From assembly GCA_017547845.1 (NCBI GenBank), contig JAFYNZ010000032.1:1-44658 (forward strand): a DNA stretch of 44,658 nt. Reading direction: 5' to 3'. The first letter of the stretch is position 1; each line of letters opens with the position of its first letter. The position numbers and the translations under genes were made by a program. The notes under the pieces were generated by a model, which was given only the letters and a program-made list of their open reading frames with translations, ran no database searches and was not told the DNA's origin. The DNA is from Muribaculaceae bacterium. GTDB lineage: Bacteria; Bacteroidota; Bacteroidia; Bacteroidales; Muribaculaceae. Of this stretch, positions 17,235 to 22,742 are shown one piece after another.

Positions 17235-18416
17235 TTAGTCAAACGGATAAGCCGCCACGAAGCAGTCAGGGTGACGCAACTCCTCTTGATGCGCTTTGAG
17301 GTTGGCTATTGTCACGTCGCCTACGATATAATTATAGTCGTCTGACGAGTACTGTTCACGCACCTTAGAGAAGTTGAGCAGATTACGTTGTTCGGCAGTT
17401 TTATAGCGGAAATACACGCGGAATGTATGCTCTTTGGTGTAGGCAGGTAGCACAGAGTTGTTGCGTTTCTTATACTCATAGCGATAGTTGTAGGCACAAG
17501 CAGTGATGTCGCTGAGCACGGCTGAGCCTGTGGGGTGACCACCGGCACCACGACCGAACATAAATTGCTTACCATAGAATAAACCCTTGATTACCACGCC
17601 ATTAAATTCATCTTCCACGCCGTAGATATATTTATTGCGAGAGATGAGTTGCGGAATAACACACATGATGAGTCTATCGTCAAATTTCTCAACATGAGCC
17701 ACAAGCTTGATGCGACGGTCTTTTTCTTTGGTAAAACGAATGTCGGCATCATTCATGGTGGAAATGCCATAGGTGAAGATTTCTTCCGGAGTAACATAGA
17801 CACCAAATGCGTGCATAGTGACGATGATAAGCTTAAACAGTGAGTCCCAGCCATCTATGTCAAGAGTCGGATTGCTCTCAGCGAAGCCGAGTTCTTGGGC
17901 AAGGCGAAGAGCATCGCCGTAGCTCATATGCTCGTTGAAAATCTTGGAGAGAATGAAGTTGGAAGAGCCATTGAGGATACCTTTGACAGAGCAAAGCAGA
18001 TCATTGTCGTAATATTCTTCGAGATTGCGGATCACAGGGATAGAGCCACACGCTGAAGCATCGTAGAGCAATGGTGTGTTGTATTGCTCTTGAAGGTCAA
18101 TCAGCTCGATGATGTGATAAGCAAGCATCTTTTTATTGCCCGACACGACCGGGATACGCTTCTTCAAGGCACGCTTTACGATGTCGTAAGCAGCATCAGC
18201 ATCATCTATCAATTCTACTATGAGATTGATATCCTTATCTTCAAAAATGTCATCAGGATTGTCGGTAAAATGAGCCTCTACGCCACGATTTTTGGCAAGA
18301 TTGCGTACACAGATAGTCTTAATAGTGACACTCTGCGAATTGATACGCTCCAATACGTCATACAATCCACGACCTACGTTTCCAAATCCAAATAGACCTA
18401 TAGTTAAGTTTTTCAT
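17235..18416 (-). CDS. hom: Homoserine dehydrogenase (methionine cluster)
   Basis: The enzyme reduces aspartate semialdehyde to homoserine. The 393-residue protein has the nucleotide-binding motif G10-F-G12-N-V-G15, an SGNKKMLA segment equivalent to the conserved Asn-Lys, ILNGSSNFIL and the catalytic-domain signature TLDIDGWDSLFKL. The C-terminal 70-80 residues may form a divergent ACT-like domain. The usual VVE(L)xGG loop reads VELIDDAD, a noticeable deviation. It is the third gene of metY-metX-hom, 16 bases after metX, which points to a copy dedicated to methionine synthesis. Bacteroidales usually also carry a fused aspartokinase-homoserine dehydrogenase. Confidence 0.92.
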   Translation of the reverse strand: MKNLTIGLFGFGNVGRGLYDVLERINSQSVTIKTICVRNLAKNRGVEAHFTDNPDDIFEDKDINLIVELIDDADAAYDIVKRALKKRIPVVSGNKKMLAYHIIELIDLQEQYNTPLLYDASACGSIPVIRNLEEYYDNDLLCSVKGILNGSSNFILSKIFNEHMSYGDALRLAQELGFAESNPTLDIDGWDSLFKLIIVTMHAFGVYVTPEEIFTYGISTMNDADIRFTKEKDRRIKLVAHVEKFDDRLIMCVIPQLISRNKYIYGVEDEFNGVVIKGLFYGKQFMFGRGAGGHPTGSAVLSDITACAYNYRYEYKKRNNSVLPAYTKEHTFRVYFRYKTAEQRNLLNFSKVREQYSSDDYNYIVGDVTIANLKAHQEELRHPDCFVAAYPFD

Positions 18417-18432
18417 GTGATATCTTAGGGGG

Positions 18433-19452
18433 TTAATAGTTCATAAAATTAGTGATTATGTTGTTGAGTTTCTCGTGTTCGACAAGAAATCCGTCGTGAC
18501 CAAACGATGACTCGATCAAGTGATATTCCACATCCGAGATATACTGACGCATCTGAATATGCGCTTCGACAGGGAATAGAATGTCGGACGAGATAGCGAC
18601 CACAAGCGTGCGAGCCTTAATCTGTCGGAGAGCGTCGGCTACCGATCCACGACCACGTCCGATGTTGTGAGAGTCTACGGCCTCAGTCATGCGATAGTAA
18701 GAGAAGGCGTTAAATCGACGGCGCAGCTTCTCACCTTGGTGCTGTTGATAGGTGTGAGCACGACGCTCAAATGCTGCGTCCGTAGGGTTGTCACGGTCTT
18801 GCTGAGTAGCGTTATATGCCGGTGCACCGCGATAGCTGATTAGGGCTATCGAACGTGCCACAGCCATACCATCAAGGCCGGCATCGTCTCGGAGTTGCCC
18901 CCAAGTGCCATCTGCTCTGATGGCCATACGTTGCGACTCATTGAATGCAGCAGCCCATGGTTCGGTGTTAGTGGTAGTTGCGATAAGAGCGAGATTCTCC
19001 ATGAAATCAGGCTCTGTCACGGCCCATTCCATGCATTGAAATCCACCTATTGAACTACCGATGAGCAACTTCACTCTATCTATACCGAGGTGTTTTGCAA
19101 GCAATCTATGGCAAGTCACCATGTCGCGTACCGTGATGCGTGGGAAATCGTAATACCACTTTTCGCCGGTCGTCGGATTTATTGACAGTGGCGATGTCGT
19201 GCCATAATGAGAACCTAAAAAATTAGCACACACGATAAAATACTTGTTAGGGTCGAGAAATCTACCCTCTTCGACAGTATTCGGCCACCAATCCTTGACA
19301 TCGGAGTTGGCCGTCAAAGCATGACACACCCAAATCACGTTGTCTTTTGCTTCAGAGAGAGTGCCAAATGTGTCGTAAGCAATGACGACCTCCGGCAAGA
19401 TCTCTCCCGACTCCAGCTCTACAGGACTGTTATGATGATAGGTTTTAGCCAT
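18433..19452 (-). CDS. metX: Homoserine O-acetyltransferase
   Basis: The enzyme acetylates homoserine with acetyl-CoA, activating it for direct sulfhydrylation. This alpha/beta-hydrolase-fold protein has 339 residues, with the nucleophile elbow GSSIGG (Ser134), the family segment CHALTANSDV, and FGHDGFLVEH carrying the catalytic His. An acetyl rather than succinyl donor is inferred from adjacency to an O-acetylhomoserine sulfhydrylase. It lies 3 bases downstream of metY and 16 bases upstream of hom. Confidence 0.94.
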   Translation of the reverse strand: MAKTYHHNSPVELESGEILPEVVIAYDTFGTLSEAKDNVIWVCHALTANSDVKDWWPNTVEEGRFLDPNKYFIVCANFLGSHYGTTSPLSINPTTGEKWYYDFPRITVRDMVTCHRLLAKHLGIDRVKLLIGSSIGGFQCMEWAVTEPDFMENLALIATTTNTEPWAAAFNESQRMAIRADGTWGQLRDDAGLDGMAVARSIALISYRGAPAYNATQQDRDNPTDAAFERRAHTYQQHQGEKLRRRFNAFSYYRMTEAVDSHNIGRGRGSVADALRQIKARTLVVAISSDILFPVEAHIQMRQYISDVEYHLIESSFGHDGFLVEHEKLNNIITNFMNY

Positions 19453-19455
19453 ACG

Positions 19456-20736
19456 TTATATCTTTTCAAGTGCTTGTTGATAGTCGGCGATGATATCCTC
19501 CACATTCTCCAAACCGAGAGAGATACGAAGGAGTGTCGGGGTGATACCGGCTGCCTCTTTTGCTTGATCCGAAAGCTGCTTGTGGGTGGTCGATGCAGGG
19601 TGAGTGACCACTGTGATAGAGTCGCCTATCATAGTCATATGGGCCGACAGACGCAGACTTTCCACAAATTTCACTGTGCTTTCGAGCGTACCTTCGAGTT
19701 CGATAGTCATGACAGCCGACGCACCAAATCGGAAATATTTCTTTGCCAATTCGTAGCTTGAATGGTCCTCAAATCCGACAAAGCTGACACTTCTCACCTT
19801 AGGGTGCTGACGACAGAATTCAGCCAAACGATAGGTCGATTCGACTTCATGCTTCACACGCAATGACAGCGTCTCAAGACCTAAAAGCATCAGATAAGCA
19901 TCGAATGATGATGGACAACAACCAAAGTCGCGCATACCATCGACACGACATTTGACGATGAACGCCTGATTGCCAAACGCTTCATAGAGATTGAGTCCGT
20001 GATAACCTTCTGAAGGGCCATCTATTGTAGGGAATTTACCACACGACCAGTCGAATTTACCACCGTCGACGATGATGCCACCCATAGCATTTCCATGACC
20101 ATTAATCCACTTAGTAGCCGAGTCGGTGATAATGTCGGCACCCCAGTCTAAAGGATTGCAGAGATAGCCACCGGCACCAAACGTATTATCGACCACGAGC
20201 GGAATATTGTGACTATGAGCCAACTCAGCCAATGCTTCGATATCTGCCACGCGGCAAGTAGGATTGCCCATTGACTCGACAAAGATAGCACGAGTCTTAT
20301 CGTCGATAAGTCCCGCCATATCTTGAGCATTATCGCTTGCTGCCATACGACAATCAATGCCGAGATTGCGGAGCGAGATAACGAATTGGTTGTGAGTTCC
20401 ACCATAGAGATAAGGCGAGGTCACGATGTTGTCGCCCTGCTTTGCGAGCGATGTGACAGTGAGTAGAATAGCCGACATACCTGACGATGTCGCCAAAGCA
20501 CCCACACCACCATAGAGGGCAGCGATACGTTCTTCGTAGGCAGCAGTCGTAGGATTGTGGAGACGAGTATAAATGTAGCCCGGCTCGCTAAGTGTAAATA
20601 GATTGGCGGCATAGTCGCATGATGGGAAATGATAGGCTGCTGTGGGGTGAATAGCTATTCCTCTTGCTTGTGATTGATCAACATGATATCCGCCATGGAT
20701 CTGAAGTGTCTCAAAATGTAGTTTATCTGATGACAT
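19456..20736 (-). CDS. metY: O-acetylhomoserine sulfhydrylase
   Basis: This PLP enzyme of the Cys/Met-metabolism family makes homocysteine from O-acetylhomoserine and sulfide. The 426-residue protein begins with the characteristic LQIHGGYHVDQ and contains YTRLHNPTTAAYEERIAALYGG, the PLP aspartate region VVDNTFGAGG and the Schiff-base Lys209 in SATKWINGHG. It is the first gene of the leftward met cluster, with a roughly 235-nt leader that contains a Met-rich mini-ORF. It could also use other sulfur nucleophiles. Confidence 0.95.
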   Translation of the reverse strand: MSSDKLHFETLQIHGGYHVDQSQARGIAIHPTAAYHFPSCDYAANLFTLSEPGYIYTRLHNPTTAAYEERIAALYGGVGALATSSGMSAILLTVTSLAKQGDNIVTSPYLYGGTHNQFVISLRNLGIDCRMAASDNAQDMAGLIDDKTRAIFVESMGNPTCRVADIEALAELAHSHNIPLVVDNTFGAGGYLCNPLDWGADIITDSATKWINGHGNAMGGIIVDGGKFDWSCGKFPTIDGPSEGYHGLNLYEAFGNQAFIVKCRVDGMRDFGCCPSSFDAYLMLLGLETLSLRVKHEVESTYRLAEFCRQHPKVRSVSFVGFEDHSSYELAKKYFRFGASAVMTIELEGTLESTVKFVESLRLSAHMTMIGDSITVVTHPASTTHKQLSDQAKEAAGITPTLLRISLGLENVEDIIADYQQALEKI

Positions 20737-20770
20737 AATAATTCCTGTTTATAGATTAATATGATACGCT

Positions 20771-20792
20771 ACACCTTATTATATATAGGTGT
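20771..20792 (-). promoter_or_regulatory. Hairpin before metY
   Basis: ACACCT and AGGTGT are perfectly complementary across a 10-base A/T loop, ending about 35 bases upstream of the metY ATG. There is no following T-run, so it is more likely a regulatory stem than a simple terminator. Confidence 0.5.
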
Positions 20793-20866
20793 GTTGTGAA
20801 ATTCTAAAATATGTAACGAAGAGAAAGTGCGGAGTGATCCTCCATGGAGAAGTAAACAAATAGTGC

Positions 20867-20911
20867 CTAACGGCACATTCGCATAGACATAGACATTGAG
20901 CGTTGCATCAT
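20867..20911 (-). CDS. Met/Cys-rich leader peptide
   Basis: A 14-codon frame encodes MMQRSMSMSMRMCR and ends in TAG inside a GTGCC/GGCAC hairpin. Six of 14 residues are Met and one is Cys, the end products of the pathway encoded downstream. It lies about 60 nt after the promoter and about 130 nt before metY. Amino-acid-rich leader peptides of this form classically sense charging of the matching tRNA by ribosome stalling (established for trp, his and leu operons in other bacteria). Its role here is inference. An in-frame GTG precedes the two ATGs. Confidence 0.6.
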   Translation of the reverse strand: MMQRSMSMSMRMCR

Positions 20912-20976
20912 CACTGATACATACGAATCAATATATATGTTTGACAATAATCTCATTGTTTTGCGTTGTTTGCGTG

Positions 20977-21008
20977 CAAATTTAGACAAATAAATCCAAA
21001 CAACCAAA
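20977..21008 (-). promoter_or_regulatory. Promoter of the met cluster
   Basis: On the minus strand TTTG (21008-21005) is followed after 20 bases by TAAATTTG (20984-20977), a complete Bacteroidetes consensus. Transcription would begin near 20972, giving a leader of about 235 nt, unusually long for this window. Confidence 0.8.
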
Positions 21009-21080: not shown

Positions 21081-22742
21081 TCAGCACATGCAGATGAGCA
21101 GAACTTGCACTATAATAACTCTGACAAACATACTTAACGGATAGACAGTCGTGTAGGCCACTGCCGGAGCATCATTACCGACCACATCGTTGGCGTAATT
21201 GAGTGCCATCGGATTGGCCATACTACCGCACAACATACCCCCAACCGTCGCATAATCCATCTTCATAATTCGTGAAGCTATAAATCCTACGATAAGCACC
21301 GGAACAATAGTTATCACAAAGCCTATACCAATCCATGCCATACCTTCAGGGCGAATCACGATATCAAAGAAATCACTACCGGCATCGATGCCCAGACAAG
21401 CAAGATAGAGCGACAATCCAAGGGCTCGAAGCATCAGATTGGCACTGCGAGTGACGTATGTGACCATATGCAATCTGGGTCCGAACGTACCCATCAAAAT
21501 GCCTACAATAATCGGACCACCTGCAAGACCGAGCTTCACGGGCATACTGACTCCCGGTATCATGATCGGAATTGAGCCGAGTATCAAGCCAATGGTCAGA
21601 CCGATAAAGACCGACACAAGGTTGGGTTCGCCAAGATTTTTGACAGTGTTGCCCATCATCTCGCTGACCTCTTTGACAGCCTTCGCCTCACCGACAACAA
21701 TCAGACGGTCGCCAAGTTGGAGACGCAATTGAGGGCTTGCCAAGATGGATATACCTCCACGATAGACACGAGTAGTGTTAACACCATAGTCATTGCGTAG
21801 ATGAAGCGAGCCGAGTCGCTTACCATTCAATTCGGGCTTGGTGATGAGGATTTTTTGAGAGACAAGATGCGAGTCGACCTTGTTCCAGTCGATATCACGT
21901 TTGTTCCAATCGGTAGACTCTTGTTCGCCAAAGAGCACTTCAAGAGCAGCGACATCTTTCTCATTGGTCACGACCAAGATTCTGTCGCCTTCCTCAAGGA
22001 CAGTTTCCGAAGTCGGAATACTCACCTCATTGTCTCCTCTCCATAGGCGAGTAATGATGAAATGATGTCCCTTGAGTATATCGATTCCCTTCAAACTCTT
22101 ACCGAAGATAGCCGGGTTTTGAATCTTAAAAGCAGCGATAAAAGTCTCATCATGCTCCTCTGTAGGACGCAATTTATCGTTATTGCGATAGAATATCTTA
22201 CGAGACACCACCAATGCCAAAATCACACCTACCACGCCCAACGGATATGCCACTGCACAGCCCAATGCCAACGAACTGCTGTCGATTCCAAGTTGCTTCA
22301 AGGTCTGCTGAGCAGCACCCAGAGCCGGGGTATTGGTGACAGCGCCACACATCACGCCGACCATGTCGGTAATGGGAATTCCGGTCAAAAAAGCAGCGAT
22401 GACAGTAATGACAATACCGAGCATTATCACAGCCATAGCAAGCATGTTGAGTGTCAATCCACCCTTACGAAACGAACTGAAAAAGCCCGGACCGACTTGG
22501 AGTCCGAGAGCATATACGAAGAGTATCAACCCGAAATTTTCCGCATAGTTGAGCATATCGGCATCTAACGAAAGACCGAGGTGTCCTGCCAAAATGCCCA
22601 CAAAAAAGACTAATGTTGCACCTAATGAAACGCCCAAAACCTTAATCTTGCCCAGTGACAAACCCACGGCACAAATTATAGAGAGCACGATGACTGCTTG
22701 CAACGCACTATGATCGATAAGTATTGATTCAATCCATTCCAT
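21081..22742 (-). CDS. AspT/YidE-family transporter with TrkA_C domains
   Basis: This is a polytopic membrane transporter of the aspartate:alanine exchanger family. The 553-residue protein has two hydrophobic halves (about 12-190 and 375-553, each with a repeat such as GLILFVYALGLQVGPGFF and LALYLACLGIDAGSDFF-like text). Two regulatory TrkA_C/RCK-C-like domains lie between them, each with a GDRILVV or GDRLIVVGE motif. The substrate is uncertain; family members exchange dicarboxylates or amino acids. It is transcribed alone, with a promoter at 22791-22822. Confidence 0.88.
   Translation of the reverse strand: MEWIESILIDHSALQAVIVLSIICAVGLSLGKIKVLGVSLGATLVFFVGILAGHLGLSLDADMLNYAENFGLILFVYALGLQVGPGFFSSFRKGGLTLNMLAMAVIMLGIVITVIAAFLTGIPITDMVGVMCGAVTNTPALGAAQQTLKQLGIDSSSLALGCAVAYPLGVVGVILALVVSRKIFYRNNDKLRPTEEHDETFIAAFKIQNPAIFGKSLKGIDILKGHHFIITRLWRGDNEVSIPTSETVLEEGDRILVVTNEKDVAALEVLFGEQESTDWNKRDIDWNKVDSHLVSQKILITKPELNGKRLGSLHLRNDYGVNTTRVYRGGISILASPQLRLQLGDRLIVVGEAKAVKEVSEMMGNTVKNLGEPNLVSVFIGLTIGLILGSIPIMIPGVSMPVKLGLAGGPIIVGILMGTFGPRLHMVTYVTRSANLMLRALGLSLYLACLGIDAGSDFFDIVIRPEGMAWIGIGFVITIVPVLIVGFIASRIMKMDYATVGGMLCGSMANPMALNYANDVVGNDAPAVAYTTVYPLSMFVRVIIVQVLLICMC

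Follow-up and report, generated by a model that had tools for sequence, protein, structure and literature searches.

The trp, his and similar leaders of Proteobacteria are ribosome-mediated transcription attenuators, and attenuation by a leader peptide has been described for a wide range of amino acids. The RNA sensors of methionine known to us are SAM riboswitches and T-boxes. The locus described here resembles the trp and his attenuators in that a short leader ORF containing codons for the amino acid made by the pathway precedes biosynthetic genes. A sister type of the leader resembles them further, as it combines a terminator with an antiterminator strand one ribosome footprint after the control codon. 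The differences are that the amino acid presumably sensed is methionine, which is also the initiator, that the host belongs to the Bacteroidales, that in the sister type the last codons of the leader ORF themselves contain the antiterminator strand, and that the subgroup to which our locus belongs has no recognisable terminator beyond a weak hairpin at the stop codon.

Several reports describe related leaders. The available part of PMC11109978 presents the ilvB uORF of Corynebacterium as a leader attenuator of an amino-acid operon, and the fthC uORF motif of Streptococcus as one suggested to respond to methionine via initiator tRNA and translation initiation. The latter is like our leader in being a uORF with a suggested methionine response, and unlike it in its initiator-tRNA route and in controlling fthC. 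Candidate Cys leader peptides without a terminator hairpin were described for cys operons of Mycobacterium, with Rho proposed to act there (PMC1262725, available part). They share with our locus a conserved ORF, codons for a sulphur amino acid near the stop, a proposed role for Rho and, the weak stop-codon hairpin of our locus aside, the absence of a terminator hairpin. They carry runs of Cys rather than Met, however, and come from Actinobacteria, and the leader type studied here has one conserved hairpin around the stop codon and a second one beyond it. Closer to our organism, a passage of PMC9723704 gives clues that leader peptides attenuate amino-acid biosynthesis operons of Flavobacterium psychrophilum, a member of the same phylum, although that passage names no amino acid, and a passage of PMC7366714 mentions Bacteroides sORFs reminiscent of leader peptides. 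The mechanism class is therefore not new to the phylum. A SAM-II (metA) element was reported in the Bacteroides group in the available part of PMC1273637. The SAM-I riboswitch (RF00162) likewise occurs at metY of other Bacteroidia (34 of 79 loci), but it binds SAM without translation and has no match at our locus. No Met leader peptide before methionine genes appeared among the matches listed in the literature, subscription papers being mostly outside the scope, nor is one described in the available parts of PMC12121999, PMC2965389 and PMC8632094.

The window, by which we mean the whole 44,658-nt stretch of Muribaculaceae DNA that was analysed, contains the gene order metY-metX-hom 3′ of the leader on the minus strand. 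The leader lies in the gap between metY and an upstream gene for an AspT/YidE-like transporter (22742..21081). The features are:

17235..18416, minus strand: hom, homoserine dehydrogenase (NF004976, 299.5 bits, cut-off 205)
18433..19452, minus strand: metX-like homoserine acyltransferase, below the curated cut-offs (TIGR01392, 341.3 bits, cut-off 500; PRK00175, 309.5 bits, cut-off 331)
19456..20736, minus strand: metY, O-acetylhomoserine sulfhydrylase (TIGR01326, 548.7 bits, cut-off 495.1)
20771..20792, minus strand: hairpin H3, ACACCT/AGGTGT, variable among relatives
20831..20843, minus strand: hairpin H2, here GGAG/CTCC, shifted and short relative to the consensus stem
20863..20876, minus strand: hairpin H1, GTGCC-GTTA-GGCAC, which includes the final codons of the leader and its stop
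20867..20956, minus strand: Met leader peptide ORF, recognised by conservation, shuffles and codon counts
20977..20984, minus strand: promoter -7 box TAAATTTG of the Bacteroidota type TAnnTTTG, with the transcript start expected a few nucleotides downstream

The leader ORF MRLLSNIYIDSYVSVMMQRSMSMSMRMCR runs from 20956 to 20867 on the minus strand and comprises 29 codons followed by a TAG stop codon, which sits within the GTGCC/GGCAC hairpin. It contains seven Met codons, start included, and one Cys codon, and it ends M-R-M-C-R-stop. An earlier note on this DNA had proposed an ORF of 14 codons. The Met and Cys codons that it described are present and form the last 14 codons, but the conserved ORF begins 15 codons upstream of the start proposed there; because 47 of 64 leaders of the same type as the window's span 24-32 codons when measured from the furthest in-frame ATG, MMQRS.. 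is not a likely start. Six Met codons fall within the last 20 codons of the ORF. None of 5000 dinucleotide shuffles of the upstream region reached six and 61 reached at least four, two of those with five. The promoter proposed there also held up: the box TAAATTTG lies upstream of the ORF, so a transcript start downstream of 20867 is not indicated. We take the TAnnTTTG motif to be the -7 box of Bacteroidota promoters, and TAnn(n)TTTG was found before or around the ORF start in 63 of the 64 leaders, compared with 13% in shuffles.

The stretch between 20975 and the metY start (242 nt) folded better than shuffled sequences (z -2.94; 1 of 200 shuffles was as good). The earlier structural proposals fared differently. 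The GTGCC/GGCAC stem at the stop codon was paired in each of 61 distinct sequences from relatives, whereas the pairings AGTGAT/ATCACT, and ATGAT and ACGCT with AGCGTATCAT, were not conserved in an alignment of 24 leaders. A search of the whole window with Rfam 15 at the gathering threshold returned no match to any family, SAM riboswitches and T-box included, as had been predicted for the SAM models. With the SAM riboswitch models of Rfam 15 at the gathering score, the related loci L036, L049, L104 and L107 also gave no match.

We then examined relatives of metY, using the best 80 of the 92 found in a search of named genome contigs. A Met-rich leader preceded 54 of these 80 genes; 23 were of the window type and 31 of the sister type. 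All 23 loci found through metY had a leader ending in ...MRMCR or one residue off, L045 and L053 each deviating by one. The other 26 loci include contigs that were cut short (L039, L078), eight at which metY directly follows an apparent gcvT end (L066, L068, L070, L072, L075, L081, L086, L113), and the close relatives L035, L037, L039 and L041. Among metY intergenic regions of at least 120 nt from these best 80 loci of 92, 47 of 62 contained a uORF with at least three Met codons, compared with 2 of 119 regions before other genes at the same loci.

Further window-type leaders were collected by a pattern search that allowed up to two mismatches, with ATGCGAATGTGCCNNTAGGCAC as bait. Of 26 genomes searched, 21 contained the motif; in the genus of G512 it was present in 56 of 151. 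Removal of duplicates left 64 distinct window-type leaders, of which 63 precede metY and one is cut by a contig end; none was found before another gene. Genome G576 has two copies, each before a metY (L157, L158). A scan of 393 genomes of the window's own order with up to one mismatch found the motif in the window's genome only. In-frame ATG made up 177 of the 1168 variable codons of the 64 leaders, whereas the two remaining frames had 7 and 0; these counts omit the last five codons, which belonged to the search motif. Met was present at position -3 in all 64 and at -5 in 63. With ATGCGAATGTGCCNNTAGGCAC as bait, the uniformity of the last five codons across the 64-leader set is partly a product of the search; the same leader end in the 23 loci found through metY is free of this bias.

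The ORF and its Met codons are thus kept in relatives, and the frame-specific ATG count indicates selection on a Met leader peptide before methionine genes, in agreement with the earlier note. Judged from these comparisons, the leader is a conserved Met leader ORF in many gut Bacteroidales. A chance ORF without function could be argued from its short length and from four close relatives (L035, L037, L039, L041) that have metY and, in the available sequence, no leader. The frame-specific Met enrichment, the metY specificity, the covariation described below and the conservation contradict this reading, to which we give almost no credence. The four relatives do imply that the leader is dispensable. 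A TAnnTTTG-like box stands just upstream of metY in these four loci, in place of the leader. Genome G525 holds two metY genes, one with a leader (L125) and one without (L035); a duplication or a mixed bin is possible there.

The window-type leaders comprise subgroup R1, to which the window belongs (metY about 84-87% identical to the window's), and subgroup R2 (71-77%). In the metY tree, R1 together with the window formed a clade with support of 1.0, comprising 26 R1 leaders and four leaderless loci; R2 was not a clade. Because the sequence of H1 is nearly invariant, its pairing is by itself small evidence of a conserved structure. The covarying stem that the earlier note had suggested looking for was found in H2, which in relatives is a six-pair stem starting 12-15 nt after H1 (13 nt in 43 of 63 rows). 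For each of its six pairs there are sequences in which both sides differ, and 82.5% of its cells were paired. For H1 and H2 together, 73 cells were changed on both sides, compared with a mean of 24.5 in 500 shuffles, none of which reached 73, and with 11 to 21 in slid controls. The covariation score of 0.268 was likewise above that of all 500 shuffles (mean 0.154). Two other measures did not stand out: six pairs had both-side changes, which 53 of 500 shuffles matched, and 15 further pair types were found, which 122 of 500 shuffles matched. The five-base loop of H2 is near TACGC in most relatives though the stem covaries, and the window's loop differs; a loop kept this constant suggests a tertiary or protein contact.

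We also searched the window-type leaders for terminators and for alternative pairings, leaving out L169 and the contig-cut leader from the terminator and GGCAC-partner counts and from the C/G counts given below. Many R2 leaders continue with a third hairpin, and a 5-mer complementary to GGCAC was found there in 18 of 29 leaders (6% in shuffles). Such a partner would give a choice between a 1:2 plus 3:4 layout and a 2:3 layout. In R1, none of 33 leaders had a downstream partner for GGCAC. The only terminator candidate in the window was H1 itself (-10.7 kcal/mol, tail TTTACTTC, five of eight T), which overlaps the stop codon, and R1 as a whole had no canonical terminator beyond this weakly terminator-like hairpin. 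At a threshold of -8 kcal/mol, terminators were found in 20 of 62 window-type leaders, compared with 12.1% of shuffles; the figures were 12 of 62 and 5.6% at -10 kcal/mol, several of these being H1, and 1 of 62 and 2.1% at -12 kcal/mol or better. We folded 12 of the first 24 window-type leaders in five ribosome states, which included a ribosome placed at the stop codon or at Met -3, -5 or -7, and found no structural switch that they had in common. A UUAGG/CCUAA pairing was noticed by eye in some R1 leaders.

The sister-type leaders were defined by at least three Met in the last 20 codons, with two Met no more than one residue apart. Their ends differ from that of the window type (for example ...MMCMRSRRSRV), and two of the 31 are cut by a contig end (L087, L098). 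Between leader and metY, a hairpin followed by a T-rich tail qualified as a terminator at -8 kcal/mol or better in 28 of the 31, compared with 6.5% of 310 shuffles; at -12 kcal/mol or better the count was 26 of the 31, compared with 2.3% of shuffles. The last leader codons paired with the 5′ arm of the terminator, better than in 95% of shuffles, in 20 of the 28; the remaining eight failed this antiterminator test. In the 20 leaders that passed, the antiterminator strand started 11-16 nt (median 13) past the first base of the nearest preceding Met codon and 8-13 nt before the stop codon. A ribosome covers about 12 nt ahead of the first base of its A-site codon. A ribosome stalled at Met would therefore leave this strand free, and one at the stop codon would cover it. 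In a few sister-type leaders a further Met codon lies within or after the strand. By sequence, the sister type reads as a textbook terminator/antiterminator attenuator. The earlier proposal of ribosome-mediated attenuation is thus well matched by the sister type, with its terminators and antiterminator strands, and by the layout of R2; it is not seen in that form in R1, where no GGCAC partner and no terminator beyond the weak H1 were found.

We consider it probable that the window region is a cis-acting methionine sensor. Stalling at Met codons is the best explanation, given that the leader occupies the homologous position, that its Met codons are conserved and that the sister type shows a switch by sequence. 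According to our model, scarcity of charged Met-tRNA would cause the ribosome to stall at the Met codons three and five positions before the stop. The front of the stalled ribosome would reach about the stop codon, such that H1 would be open and GGCAC and the RNA beyond it would be free. When Met is plentiful, the ribosome would get to the stop codon and be released, the downstream RNA would fold or be bound, and transcription would end before metY. In this way a shortage of methionine would, through stalling, switch on the methionine cluster. Speaking against the model, Met is the initiator too, and deep starvation could lower initiation on the leader itself.

A different kind of sensing would be a nascent-chain arrest peptide, in which the M-R-M-C-R end would stall the ribosome in response to a metabolite rather than to codon shortage. 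The R codon at -4 is always CGA and the C codon at -2 always TGC in the 64 leaders (the search motif included both codons), and the same end recurs at the 23 loci found through metY, apart from the single-residue deviations in L045 and L053. However, overlap with H1 explains the nucleotide invariance at C -2 and R -1, the upstream Met positions vary yet the leaders stay Met-rich, which fits codon counting, and the sister type has a different end. An arrest peptide is accordingly a distinctly improbable account of the leader.

Returning to codon-dependent stalling, we favour premature transcription termination as the output in the window's lineage, with Rho as the leading candidate. In this scheme, the C-rich, G-poor RNA after H1 would load Rho once the ribosome is released at the stop codon, and stalling would block Rho by refolding or coupling. 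In R1, the RNA after H1 had a C/G ratio of 1.65, with C exceeding G in 31 of 33 leaders, and the best 40-nt C-minus-G excess was 11.9, whereas 300 shuffles averaged 9.3 and did not exceed 10.3. In the sister type, which bears terminators, the ratio was 1.26 and the excess 7.3, which is within shuffles (mean 6.9, maximum 8.0). Rho is favoured because the C-rich signal was strongest where the terminator is missing. Of the first 24 leaders, 17 also carried CAACC downstream of H1. On the other hand, R2 was weaker (C/G 1.24, C exceeding G in 16 of 29; excess 8.3, shuffle maximum 8.2), the stretch after H2 alone had a ratio of 1.32 with C exceeding G in 43 of 62, and the window itself lacks CAACC and has an average excess of 9. 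Moreover, no conserved structure that would mask the C-rich stretch on stalling was seen in the 12 folded leaders. Thus the Rho-dependent output is a serious possibility that we hold tentatively.

Alternatively, with the same sensor, H1 could itself pause or weakly terminate transcription unless kept open by the leader ribosome, with no need for an antiterminator. At pyrBI, the leader ribosome directly holds the terminator hairpin open. Consistent with such a role, H1 is nearly invariant and overlaps the stop codon, its 5′ arm would be covered by a ribosome stalled at either Met -5 or Met -3, and in the window H1 with its tail TTTACTTC scored as terminator-like, as did the matches at -10 kcal/mol or better described above, several of which are H1. 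However, most relatives have no U run after H1, the leaders do not exceed shuffles at -12 kcal/mol or better, and a ribosome at the stop codon would also mask H1. These points make direct occlusion of H1 rather unlikely. Action on metY translation or mRNA stability instead of transcription would suit the stable H1 and H2 and the absence of a canonical terminator in R1. This reading is improbable, as the metY start lies 99-151 nt past the leader stop in 62 of 63 leaders (244 nt in the other), no conserved structure was seen over the metY start, and the homologous sister type has terminators.

The origin of the cassette was examined by comparing metY with a neighbouring gene. A close metY (E 1e-130 or better) was found in 6 of 111 genomes of the window's genus. 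The other five of its own genus were 70-72% identical to the window's, and three of them had a Met-rich leader; no leader was seen at L031, where the region is cut short, or at L033. The window's metY lies inside the R1 clade, at 84-87% identity, and the R1 genomes are probably of another genus, since the own-genus metY search did not meet them. By comparison, the neighbouring dsbD-like protein was 61-76% identical, over near full length, to those of most of its own genus (54 of 61 genomes matched); in the genus of G512, where 40 of 41 genomes gave a match, identity was 41-58%, mostly over partial length. With metY close to another genus and the dsbD-like neighbour of its own, the cassette looks to have moved between genera. 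The leader-metY-metX-hom cassette (17235-20984, G000) is therefore a probable case of transfer of a self-regulated methionine module.

To place the leader in a wider context, we surveyed 296 Bacteroidia genomes, 74 of which, the window's included, had metY at E 1e-90 or better, and examined the upstream regions of all 79 metY places besides the window's (L177-L255). An earlier Met-only measure (at least three in the last 20) had found 17 of the 66 loci handled by the start finder. A uORF with at least six Met or Cys in the last 18 residues was found at 33 of the 79 loci and in 0 of 1580 shuffles, this combined measure having been chosen after Cys runs were seen in the data following the Met-only count. 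Several of these leaders are dominated by Cys, for example ...GCICMCCCCC. When the leaders and the 34 loci with Rfam matches to SAM-I were compared locus by locus, 20 loci had both, 13 the leader alone, 14 SAM-I alone and 32 neither; place and orientation were checked for some matches only. At the loci inspected by coordinates, the Cys-run ORF begins just after the SAM aptamer. The presence of leader and SAM-I at the same locus suggests two sensors in series. A scan of 15 further loci gave SAM-I matches in three of them, L004, L006 and L008. Since 16 of the 33 class-wide leaders had a terminator-like hairpin and four passed the antiterminator test, their mechanism is less clear than that of the sister type. 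Locus L017 has two tandem Met leader ORFs (1158-1232 and 1304-1393), each followed by a terminator-like hairpin, in front of metY, a metX-like gene and an apparent aspartate kinase gene.

As a tentative overall picture, which we regard as quite possible, leaders for sulphur amino acids, with Met, Cys or both, would be widespread before metY in Bacteroidia, where they would replace SAM-I or work in series with it. The window's branch may have kept the Met sensor and lost the intrinsic terminator, its output now involving an invariant stop-codon hairpin, a covarying hairpin and a C-rich stretch. Methionine is a special case, as starting the leader itself uses Met. With a conserved Met leader and a sister form that fits the ribosome footprint, whether elongator Met-tRNA can gate an operon becomes directly testable. 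The class-wide Met and Cys leaders, some with SAM-I at the same gene, offer a natural series in which one sensor may be seen to replace or join another.
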